DNA from: Halobacterium litoreum | GTDB taxonomy: Archaea > Halobacteriota > Halobacteria > Halobacteriales > Halobacteriaceae | Length of the DNA stretch: 64,000 nucleotides | Direction of reading: 5' to 3' | Assembly (NCBI RefSeq): GCF_021233415.1 | Contig: NZ_CP089466.1 | Location: forward strand, 1,550,001-1,614,000 | Shown: in pieces, positions 12,052-15,699 of the stretch | How positions within the stretch are numbered: the stretch's first letter is position 1 | Layout: every line of letters begins with the position of its first letter | Position numbers and translations under genes: made by a program | Notes under the pieces: generated by a model | The model's input: only the letters and a program-made list of their open reading frames with translations | The model's database searches: none | Told to the model about the DNA's origin: nothing

Positions 12052-12594
12052 CTACTCGTCGTCTACGTCCTCGACGTGTTTCCCGCAGGCCTCGGGAATC
12101 ACGCGCCGGTCGGCGTCCTCGTAGGTCTGGTCGAGTTCCGACCCGTCGAACAGGCGGTCGAGGAACACGGCGAGGCCGGCGACCTCGGAGTGCGGTTGGT
12201 TCGTGACGCCGACGTTCCAGTCGGCGTGCCGGTAGACGTCGAAGGGCACCTTCTCGCCGCCGACGACGACCAGGAGCGCGTCGTCAGCGTGGGCGTTCCG
12301 GATGTCGTCCTCGACGTCCTGGACGGGTTCGCCGTACATCGTGAGGTGGACGACGACGCCGTCCCAGTCCCGGATGGTGGCGTCCAGTTCCTCAGTTCGC
12401 TCCACGCCGAACGGCCCGCCGAAGCGGCCCGTGATGTCCGCGACGGTCTCCTCGGACTGGCTGGCGTTGTCCGGGAGAATCACGCGGTCAGCGCCGAGCG
12501 CTCGCGCCGTCAGGCCGACGTGGGTGGTCATGCGGTCGTCGCGGCCCGGACGGTGGCCGTACCGGAGCACCGCGACTTCTCTGTCACCCTGCAT
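12052..12594 (-). CDS. trm56: tRNA (cytidine(56)-2'-O)-methyltransferase
   Basis: 180 residues, the usual length for archaeal Trm56. It is a SPOUT-class enzyme that methylates the ribose of C56 in the T-loop of tRNA using S-adenosylmethionine. Seen: the starting VLRYGHRPGRDDR block, the VVVGGEKVPFDVY strand-knot segment that forms the SAM site, and NVGVTNQPHSEVAGLAVFLDR near the C-terminus. It lies just upstream of tfe on the same strand, a common archaeal arrangement. Confidence 0.93.
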   Translation of the reverse strand: MQGDREVAVLRYGHRPGRDDRMTTHVGLTARALGADRVILPDNASQSEETVADITGRFGGPFGVERTEELDATIRDWDGVVVHLTMYGEPVQDVEDDIRNAHADDALLVVVGGEKVPFDVYRHADWNVGVTNQPHSEVAGLAVFLDRLFDGSELDQTYEDADRRVIPEACGKHVEDVDDE

Positions 12595-12755
12595 ACGTCG
12601 GGTGAGTCGCCGCGTCGGGGTACGCGTTTCGACTGCCGATTTCGGGCGCCGCCTGCGGCCACCGGAACCGCTTTGGGTTCGGCGCGTCGTATTTCCAGTA
12701 TCTTGCTATCGAGCGTGTCCACCGGTCGCGCGCCCGCAGCGGCGCGGGCCATCGC

Positions 12756-13964
12756 GTGGAGGTGTCGTCTGTGAATCCGAGTCGCGTAGACAGCCTGACC
12801 GACCTCGCGTACGGCGTCCTCATCTTCGTGTCCGTCGCGTTGATTCTCGTCGTCGGGACGGAGACCGGGTTGGCGTTCGGGCTGGGCGCGTTGCTGTCGT
12901 ACGTGCTCCACATCGGGTGGAAGATGGCGCGCTTCGACCCGCAGTGGATGACCCAAGCCGTCGACGAGACGGTGGAGAAGAAGGTGGACGAGACGGTCGG
13001 CGAGACGGTCGAACAGAAGGTCGACCAGACCGTCGAGGAGCAGGTGTCCCGGACCGTCGAGGAGACCGTCGACCAGACCGTCGGCGAGACCGTGGAGGCG
13101 AAAGTGGACGAGACGGTGGACAAGACAGTCGAGGAGAAGGTCGGTGAGACGGTCGGCGAAACCGTCGACAAGACGGTCGGCGACACCGTGGACGAGACCG
13201 TCGAGAAAACCGTCGAGGAGAAAGTCGGCGAAACCGTCGAGGAGAAAGTCGGCGAAACCGTCGAGAAGACAGTCGAAGAGAAGGTCGAGGAGAAGGTCGA
13301 CGAGACGGTCGGCGAAACCGTCGACGAATCCGTGGACGTCACCGTCGAGGAGAAAGTCGAACAGAAAGTCGAGGAGAAGGTCGACGAGACGGTCGGCGAA
13401 ACCGTCGACGAGTCGGTAAACGTCACCGTCGAGGAGAAAGTCGAAGAGACGGTGGACGAGACGGTCGGCGAAACCGTCGACGAGACGGTCGAGGAGAAGG
13501 TGGACGAAACTGTCGAGAAGACCGTCGAGCAGACCGTCGAAGAGAAGGTCGACGAAACCGTCGACGAAACCGTCGACGAGAAGGTCGACCAGACTGTCGA
13601 GGAGAAGGTCGAACAGACCGTCGAAGAGAAGGTCGACGAAACAGTCGACGAGACAGTCGAGAAGACCGTCGACGAGAAAGTGGACCAGACCGTGGACGAG
13701 ACAGTCGACGAGACAGTCGAGAAGACCGTCGAACAGACGGTCGACGAGAAGGTCGACCAGACCGTGGACGAGACAGTCGACGAGAAAGTCGACGAAACCG
13801 TCGAGAAAACCGTCGAGGAGAAAGTCGAAGAGAAGGTCGACGAAACCGTCGACGAAACCGTCGAGAAAACTGTCGACGAGAAGGTCGAACAGACTGTCGA
13901 GGAGAAAGTCGAAGAGAAGGTCAACGGCGACGAGAGCGACGAAGACGACGAGTCCTCGTCGTAA
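12756..13964 (+). CDS. Membrane-anchored protein with 80 consecutive Val-ending tetrapeptide repeats
   Basis: 402 residues from GTG 12756 (a GTG at 12771, giving MNPSRVDSL, is equally possible). Residues 15-58 form two transmembrane helices. Residues 70-389 are exactly 80 tetrads without a gap; position 4 is always Val, position 3 mostly Thr or Lys, position 1 Asp, Glu or Gly, position 2 Glu, Lys or Gln. The tail NGDESDEDDESSS is acidic. In a helix, Val every four residues makes a slowly drifting hydrophobic stripe, so a long right-handed oligomeric rod on the membrane is plausible; a repetitive beta structure is the alternative. I recognise no named family. Function unknown. Confidence 0.85.
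   Translation: MEVSSVNPSRVDSLTDLAYGVLIFVSVALILVVGTETGLAFGLGALLSYVLHIGWKMARFDPQWMTQAVDETVEKKVDETVGETVEQKVDQTVEEQVSRTVEETVDQTVGETVEAKVDETVDKTVEEKVGETVGETVDKTVGDTVDETVEKTVEEKVGETVEEKVGETVEKTVEEKVEEKVDETVGETVDESVDVTVEEKVEQKVEEKVDETVGETVDESVNVTVEEKVEETVDETVGETVDETVEEKVDETVEKTVEQTVEEKVDETVDETVDEKVDQTVEEKVEQTVEEKVDETVDETVEKTVDEKVDQTVDETVDETVEKTVEQTVDEKVDQTVDETVDEKVDETVEKTVEEKVEEKVDETVDETVEKTVDEKVEQTVEEKVEEKVNGDESDEDDESSS
12963..13922 (+). repeat. 960-bp array of 80 degenerate 12-bp units inside the Val-tetrad gene
   Basis: Each unit encodes one tetrad and ends in GTC or GTG, with most third positions variable but GTC favoured. Runs such as GACGAGACGGTC and GAGGAGAAAGTC recur. The array stays in frame across all units. 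Because the period is a multiple of three, the opposite strand also stays open here, which creates a long false antisense frame. Confidence 0.9.
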
Positions 13965-13999: not shown

Positions 14000-14419
14000 T
14001 CACCTGACGACGGTCACCGGCACGGGCGACCGCTGGAAGACGGTCTTCGCGATGTTCCCGACGAACAGTCGCTCGGCCAGGCCGCCGCCGTGACTCCCGA
14101 CGACGACCACGTCGAAGTCGTCGGCCATGCCGACGATGACTTTCGCGGGGCTCCCCCAGCGGACTTCGGTGGCCACGTCGACGCCGGCGTCGCTCGCAAT
14201 CTCGCGGGCGCGGTCGAGGACGTCCTCGGCGAGGGTCTCGGCGGCACGCTCGACGTCGTCCTCCAGCGCCAGGCCGACCGCCTCCCCCATCGTCGCGGAC
14301 GGTTCGCCGACGACGTGGAGGACGGAAATCTCGGCGTCGGGGTGGGCGTCGATGGCGTACTCGAGCGCTCGTTCGGCCATCTCAGAGTCGTCCATCGGGA
14401 CGAGAACGCGAGCGACCAT
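14000..14419 (-). CDS. Universal stress protein (UspA family)
   Basis: 139 residues. The Usp fold starts VARVLVPMDDSEMAERALEYA and ends in the nucleotide-binding loop GSHGGGLAERLFVGN followed by SPVPVTVVR. The GxxG-x9-G(N) pattern of ATP-binding members is present. Divergent from the PiT phosphate transporter across 104 bases. A TATA-like ATAAAGT in reverse orientation at 14441-14450 is 27 bases from the start. It may respond to phosphate or energy status, judging only from its neighbour. Confidence 0.9.
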   Translation of the reverse strand: MVARVLVPMDDSEMAERALEYAIDAHPDAEISVLHVVGEPSATMGEAVGLALEDDVERAAETLAEDVLDRAREIASDAGVDVATEVRWGSPAKVIVGMADDFDVVVVGSHGGGLAERLFVGNIAKTVFQRSPVPVTVVR

Positions 14420-14440
14420 ACGGCGACTACGACGGACCCC

Positions 14441-14497
14441 GGCATAAAGTTCGGGTGGCGTCCGAGAACCGCGGCCTCGCCGGCATCAGAACCTATA
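14441..14497. promoter_or_regulatory. Divergent promoters of the Usp and PiT genes
   Basis: Reverse-strand ACTTTATG (14441-14450) lies about 27 bases before the Usp ATG at 14419. Forward CTATACG (14491-14497) lies about 27-33 bases before the PiT ATG at 14524. The spacing of both fits leaderless archaeal transcripts. Confidence 0.55.
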
Positions 14498-14523
14498 CGT
14501 CGGTGACGCGAACAACGTAGCCC

Positions 14524-15699
14524 ATGGTCTCTGTCCTCTTCCTTCTGGCAGCCCTCGCCGCGGGGTTCGTCGGGTTCAACATCGGCGGCTCGTCGACCGG
14601 CGTCGCGTGGGGGCCCGCCGTCGGCGCGAACATCATCAACAAGACGGCGGTCGCAGTGGTGATGACGTTCTTCGTGTTCCTCGGCGGGTGGACCGTCGGG
14701 CGGAACGTCATCGACACGCTCGGCGGCGAAATCGTCCGGCAGTCCGTGTTCACCACGGAGGCGAGCATCGTCGTGTTGGCGTTCATCGGCCTCGGGATGC
14801 TGCTGGCGAACCTCTACGGCGTCCCGGTGTCGACGTCGATGACGGCGGTCGGCGCGATTTCGGGGCTCGGGCTCGCGACGAACACGCTCGACTGGGCGGT
14901 GCTCGGCGAAATCGTCGTCTGGTGGATTATCGCGCCCATCGTCGGGTTCTGGTGTGGCGCGGTCGTCGGGCGGTACTTCTACCCCCACATCGAGGAGCGG
15001 TTCGCGATACAGCAATCCGAGGGGCCGTTACTGGCGCTGGACCGGTCCGGAGTCGTGCCGAAACCGACGCTCGGGCCGGGGACGTCGCGTCGCGAGGCCG
15101 TGAGCACGGTCGTGGTGTTCCTCATCGCGTGTTACATGTCGTTCAGCGCGGGCGCGAGCAACGTCGCGAACGCGGTCGCGCCGCTCGTCGGCGGCGGCCT
15201 CGTCAGCACGAACGACGCGGTGTTCCTCGCGACCGCCACCATCGGCCTCGGCGCGTTCACCATCGCGCGCCGGACGCTGGAGTCGGTCGGGAACGGGCTC
15301 ACCGACCTGCCGCTGTTGGCGGCGACCATCGTGATGGTTGTCGCGGCGACAATCACGACGGTGGCGTCGGCGCTCGGCATCCCCATCAGCCTCGCGCTCG
15401 CGACGGTGATGACCATCGTCGGCCTCGGGTGGGGGCGGGCGACGCGGTCGGTGGCGGCGGCCGAGATTGCGCGCGGCGAGGTCGACGAGGAGGACGTGGA
15501 ACTCGACGCGCTGACCGAGGAGCCCGAAGACGCCGCGCGAATCGGGCGGGAGCCCGGGGAGGACGTCCAGCACGCCGGGGACCTGTTCGACCCCTCCGTC
15601 GTCGTGCGGTTCGTCTCCTTCTGGATTATCGGCCCGTCTGTCGCGACGGCGCTCTCGTACGCGTCGTTCGTGTTGCTCCCGATTGCCGGGAGCGCCTGA
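14524..15699 (+). CDS. Inorganic phosphate transporter, PiT family
   Basis: 391 residues. Low-affinity phosphate symporter in the cytoplasmic membrane. The duplicated Pho4 half-motifs are visible: GFNIGGSSTGVAWGP near the N-terminus and SFSAGASNVANAVAPLVG near residue 210. There are about 10 transmembrane helices and an acidic cytoplasmic loop (about 325-360; EVDEEDVELDALTEEPED). Neighbouring Usp and the distant AbrB-PhoU regulator suggest phosphate-dependent control. The paired repeats argue against a pseudogene. Confidence 0.93.
   Translation: MVSVLFLLAALAAGFVGFNIGGSSTGVAWGPAVGANIINKTAVAVVMTFFVFLGGWTVGRNVIDTLGGEIVRQSVFTTEASIVVLAFIGLGMLLANLYGVPVSTSMTAVGAISGLGLATNTLDWAVLGEIVVWWIIAPIVGFWCGAVVGRYFYPHIEERFAIQQSEGPLLALDRSGVVPKPTLGPGTSRREAVSTVVVFLIACYMSFSAGASNVANAVAPLVGGGLVSTNDAVFLATATIGLGAFTIARRTLESVGNGLTDLPLLAATIVMVVAATITTVASALGIPISLALATVMTIVGLGWGRATRSVAAAEIARGEVDEEDVELDALTEEPEDAARIGREPGEDVQHAGDLFDPSVVVRFVSFWIIGPSVATALSYASFVLLPIAGSA

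Follow-up and report, generated by a model that had tools for sequence, protein, structure and literature searches.

Gene, hairpin and repeat array at the locus

The window, that is, the whole stretch of 64,000 nucleotides that was analysed, lies in a haloarchaeal genome of 2.7 Mb. The gene under study encodes a membrane protein in which a transmembrane hairpin is followed by a long array of Val-ending tetrads, and genes for a universal stress protein (Usp) and a permease lie behind it. The following features were distinguished, with positions given as those of the window.

12756..13964, forward strand: in-frame alternative start GTG at 12756, which would give 402 residues (sequence)
12758..12764, forward strand: Shine-Dalgarno-like GGAGGTG, as inferred from sequence
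12771..13964, forward strand: coding sequence of the Val-tetrad membrane protein, 397 residues (homologs align from M/VNPxRVD; GGAGG upstream; listed open reading frame)
12789..12932, forward strand: transmembrane hairpin of two helices (residues 7-28 and 30-54), the conserved core of the family (AlphaFold2, conserved columns)
12918..12947, forward strand: juxtamembrane WKMARFDPQW, almost without variation across the class (columns invariant in both A1 and A2)
12963..13922, forward strand: Val-ending tetrad array, 80 units, strict period of 4 (tetrad count, homolog spectrum, Val-codon selection)
13923..13961, forward strand: acidic C-terminal tail, NGDESDEDDESSS (translation; the tails are the least conserved region between relatives)
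14000..14419, reverse strand: Usp gene, separating the tetrad gene from that of the permease (PF00582, 1.9e-26)
14524..15699, forward strand: PiT-superfamily (PHO4) anion permease of the Usp-linked clade, the proposed partner (PF01384, 8e-44; tree; NCBIfam CysP model)

The start codon is most likely GTG 12771 and not GTG 12756, since homologs begin at MNP or VNP and the GGAGG ends 8 nt upstream. A 446-residue antisense open reading frame (STVSSTVF..., 12584-13924, reverse strand) was rejected as a gene; it is open because of the 12-bp period.

A first-pass annotation of this DNA had placed two transmembrane helices before the array. Indeed, DSSP on the AlphaFold2 model gave helices at residues 7-28 and 30-54 with a pLDDT of about 81, and conservation within the family is concentrated in this hairpin. 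The invariant positions of the A1 hairpin are P3, R5, D7, D11, Y14, G15 and W50-KMARFDP-W59-M60. The positive residues R5, K51 and R54 lie outside the helices, so that both helices are flanked on one side, and the short loop has none; both ends of the hairpin, and with them the array and the tail, are thus predicted to be cytoplasmic. This charge pattern leaves the role at the cell surface or in adhesion that had been considered without support. A search for a solved structural relative of the hairpin found none, and comparison of the hairpin alone with Pfam gave nothing real, only VirB3 at an E value of 0.048.

Translation of 12963-13922 gave 320 residues in which Val terminates every tetrad (80/80) without a gap, just as had been read from the letters, and the acidic tail reported along with the array follows it. 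Two surplus valines lie inside tetrads (DVTV and NVTV). The array holds 88 E, 35 D, 35 K and 52 T residues, for a net charge of about -87. Its Val codons are GTC (66), GTG (13) and GTA (1), third codon positions being the most variable, and its DNA was scored 631 by TRF.

The earlier statement that the protein belongs to no named family held, since neither a Pfam nor an NCBIfam family fits. CdrL_M (PF24252) and DUF445 (PF04286) scored above the Pfam cut-offs, but their matches were confined to the array and were discarded as compositional, as were matches of the full protein to Cornifin, EcsC and YpjP, which lay within the array or arose from its composition. Acidic Val/Glu-rich stretches are common to CdrL, DUF445 and the tetrad protein. 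However, the N-terminal RHH and C-terminal double zinc ribbon of CdrL were not found in the tetrad protein, and the true CdrL of the window genome is another gene, encoding a 171-residue RHH and zinc-ribbon protein without tetrads. With DUF445, the array aligned to profile positions 80-340 only, the N-terminal part was unmatched and the hairpin alone gave no match.

Distribution and periodicity of the family

The window protein belongs to a family defined here as Val-tetrad family A, with a profile match of 1.6e-47 and with both the WKMARFDPxWM motif and the period-4 array. Of 40 relatives, 30 have an ortholog, and 191 stretches in the genome collection contain one. The hairpin profile matched 209 of 292 Halobacteria genomes, or 205 after the removal of four weak matches. 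No orthologs were found outside the Halobacteria in the genomes sampled, and in the phylum sample all among the matches listed were within the same order. In plasmid records the genes are labelled as hypothetical proteins, and literature searches found no papers on the family.

Every ortholog read has a period-4 Val array after the hairpin, in which spacings of 4 number from 6 to 78. The first-pass annotation had reasoned that a family would be supported if numerous homologs shared the period and the two helices, and that the rod would fail if the array were a slippage expansion of one strain; such homologs were found, and with orthologs in 205 of 292 haloarchaeal genomes the array is not a one-strain slippage product. 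Array length is very different between orthologs, spanning a handful to 80 tetrads, and sister species differ by 12-bp steps. Across orthologs we counted 3060 Val spacings of 4 versus 140 of 3, and in 85 homologous arrays the spectrum of hydrophobicity had its peak at exactly 4.0 residues, with no power at 3.5-3.67. No higher-order register was seen: tetrad autocorrelation gave no lag common to lineages, and there was no 3.6-residue charge modulation. In five Natrialbaceae members (L061, L064, L066, L086 and L089), a conserved C-terminal motif, VDERIDRRPREDEIEELI, replaces the plain acidic tail and is preceded by 3-residue Val spacings.

A paralogous family B, present in many family A genomes, has a related hairpin (GLVVGYxLRVWEKMSIYE) followed by an Ala/Val tetrad array whose tetrads are richer in Arg/Gln. 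It was found at L101-L106, L108, L109 and L129, and its gene lies behind a PiT gene in L102, L104, L108, L109 and L129. Families A and B both hold Val at exactly every fourth position, despite differing in other residues.

Selection on the valines and the nature of the array

When 20 pairs of relatives were pooled, the Val codons showed 150 synonymous versus 10 nonsynonymous differences, with a pN of 0.007 that may be biased, since aligners favour Val-on-Val pairing; pN was 0.069 at other array positions, 0.028 in the hairpin and 0.149 in the tail. These values are suggestive of strong purifying selection on the Val codons, which is further indicated by the retention of the same period in family B. 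Together with the TRF score of 631 and the spectrum peak at 4.0, such selection places the regularity of the array far above chance. Our reading of the array as an arm-like cytoplasmic device is a tentative one, to which we give somewhat less than even weight.

The array could instead be an entropic bristle or disordered acidic spacer, which would separate permeases or act as a polyanion near the pore while unfolded, with Val serving to tune solubility. AlphaFold2 modelled the array as helix with low confidence (single chain, pLDDT 43-71). This low pLDDT, the high Thr/Gly/Val content, which lowers helix propensity, the free drift in length, the strong acidity and the poorly conserved tail are all consistent with a bristle. 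We nevertheless regard it as unlikely, given the 150-to-10 excess of synonymous differences at the Val codons and the exact Val period kept by families A and B, of which a random spacer has no need.

The periodicity bears on whether the array is instead a rod. Alpha-helical coiled coils have an accessible periodicity of about 3.3-3.9, outside of which 4.0 lies (PMC4786415). The arrays, with their peak at 4.0 and lack of power at 3.5-3.67, thus do not form a canonical coiled coil, and a conventional helical rod, toward which the first-pass annotation had leaned in naming a straight or right-handed one, finds no support. The arrays do resemble right-handed coiled coils (hendecad, 11/3; pentadecad, 15/4; YadA, 19/5), in that a hydrophobic spacing above 3.63 would lead to right-handed winding, with long rods. 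However, those coils mix spacings of 3 and 4 (3.67-3.8), whereas the tetrad arrays keep to 4.0, in most members without 3-residue steps. By simple arithmetic, the Val stripe on a straight alpha helix would turn 40 degrees per tetrad and make a full turn per nine tetrads. As far as the model can guide us, the array may form a fibre of a new kind, be a helix with loose packing, or lack order. A selected hydrophobic period of 4.0 residues over 80 units, which coiled-coil theory puts beyond the alpha-helical range, raises the question of the structure that it adopts.

A purely structural role, of the kind raised in the first-pass annotation, in which the array would oligomerise as a fibre of the cytoskeleton or the surface while the permease link described below would be incidental, draws on the strict period of 4 over up to 80 units, the conserved Val and the membrane anchor. 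We judge it distinctly unlikely: besides the period lying outside the coiled-coil range, arrays of a handful to 80 tetrads share no common higher-order register, and what the gene is tied to in genomes is a permease rather than genes of the cytoskeleton or the surface.

There is little likelihood that the array is a neutral 12-bp repeat expansion, its regularity stemming from in-frame duplication and the hairpin being the sole working part. The 12-bp-step length differences between sister species and the strongly conserved hairpin would fit such an origin. Yet third codon positions vary widely and Val is fixed (pN 0.007 versus 0.069 in the array and 0.149 in the tail, with the possible bias of V-to-V alignment), and family B has the same period. 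Moreover, the 18 kinds of tetrad in the array are written by 44 distinct 12-base units, so that the array did not arise by recent expansion.

Genomic linkage to a PiT-superfamily permease

The gene order in the window is tetrad (forward), Usp (reverse) and PiT (forward), so that the permease is one gene away, a separation that counts against the partnership. Among 80 named loci, about three quarters (61) had a PiT gene in the fetched flank: downstream on the same strand only in 35, divergently upstream only in 13 and on both sides in 10. Downstream gaps were zero or negative in 25 of the 39 measured, mostly -1 or -4, with stop and start codons often overlapping, which we take as a sign of translational coupling. 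All eight plasmid-borne copies of the tetrad gene adjoin a PiT gene. Also counting against it, about a quarter of the named loci have no PiT gene in the fetched flank; some of these contigs are incomplete, but in others (Natrinema, Salinarchaeum) the neighbours are unrelated.

Several arrangements were observed alongside. The Usp gene and one PiT clade form a module (14000-15699; also L117, L119, L113 and L112) that occurs without a tetrad gene as well. At ten Natrialbaceae loci (L052, L061, L064, L071, L078, L086, L088, L089, L092 and L100), the tetrad gene has a PiT gene on either side, the two belonging to different clades. A ferredoxin-like gene (MPTVEYxNYEVxDDxGWD; L122, 4245-4631; L110, 2219-2605) comes after PiT genes to which no tetrad gene is adjacent.

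The association extends to whole genomes. Across the 292 genomes, 193 had both family A and the permease clade, 12 the tetrad gene only, 12 the clade only and 75 neither, leaving 24 discordant genomes (Fisher p of about 1.7e-43). This p value overstates the evidence, since the permease profile (A4), whose scores over the 292 genomes were cleanly two-peaked, was built from linked permeases, and since relatives are not independent, the statistics ignoring phylogeny. Within genera, gain and loss were fully concordant in ten, and the pattern was broken in g14, g66 and g80. In genus g11, with about 35 genomes, both genes are kept yet unlinked (in G042, the tetrad gene is at 2800684 and the PiT gene at 275536), and simple hitch-hiking thus does not explain the tie. 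The window genome is without the usual permease; its place beside the tetrad gene is taken by a PiT of the Usp-linked clade, and the site is surrounded by the genes (trm56, tfe) that also surround it in other Halobacterium loci. This swap is an exception that supports the case for a partner.

Mere co-inheritance of the two genes in a mobile or syntenic block, with no functional contact, would account for the plasmid copies travelling in pairs, but it has a very slim chance of being correct in view of the several permease clades, the three orientations, the in-place swap and the joint retention of the unlinked genes in g11. On this genomic evidence, the tetrad protein is very probably a functional partner of the permease.

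As to the identity of the permease, the protein encoded at 14524-15699 has a PHO4 domain and is a relative of PDB 6l85. The GAND signatures of that solved PiT read GGSS and GASN in the alignment, so that the signature itself was not found. Its best NCBIfam model was that of the CysP sulfate permease (NF053884), at 165 bits, below the 400-bit cut-off; linked permeases scored 130-165 with this model, and the two other PiTs of the window genome scored 50-61. The linked permeases thus appear nearer to CysP than other haloarchaeal PiTs do, and their substrate may be phosphate or sulfate. DUF47/PhoU_div (PF01865), the usual PiT partner, was rejected as a hidden partner: 28 of 40 relatives, the window genome among them, gave no match, and in the 40 it never lay near a listed PiT.

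Proposed function and comparison with known accessory proteins

We propose a mechanism in which the hairpin and the invariant WKMARFDPxWM would dock on the permease within the membrane, both ends being cytoplasmic, and the array would reach into the cytoplasm, forming an extended arm that is largely helical and highly acidic. The arm might self-associate weakly, or act as a spacer that keeps permeases and cytoplasmic partners apart, and would thereby gate, cluster or sense transport, or signal, as PitR does for bacterial PitA. Its length would be free to drift by 12-bp units, with Val fixed at every fourth position. On balance, we favour an accessory role, specific to haloarchaea, for the tetrad protein at a PiT/CysP-like anion permease; its function would resemble that of PitR, to which it is not related. 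A bolder version, in which a regular fibre of 4.0-residue step joined to a hairpin would constitute a new class of transporter accessory, unrelated to PhoU/PitR and controlling the PiT/CysP-like permease, seems to us rather doubtful.

An unnamed, class-wide haloarchaeal family thus gains a candidate partner and a testable job. The PiT-type permeases of the 40 relatives are without a neighbouring PhoU-like accessory, for which the tetrad protein looks like a replacement, and it may help to decide between phosphate and sulfate transport by these permeases.

PitR is a member of the PhoU family and is not known to have a Val-tetrad array. It is matched by the tetrad protein in the adjacency of the gene to that of a PiT permease, in a presence tied to the permease family and in the provision of one accessory per transporter. 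However, the tetrad protein differs in being membrane-anchored, in carrying a repeat array and in having neither a PF01865 nor a PhoU match, for which reason assignment to PitR/PhoU_div was rejected. A 2026 survey tied PitR to PitA and pointed to SCO1846, an uncharacterised small membrane protein of one third the size of PhoU, whose gene adjoins pitA in some bacteria that lack PitR (PMC13170248). Compared by description only, SCO1846 is like the tetrad protein in being a small, unrelated membrane protein with a PiT-type permease as neighbour and PitR absent.
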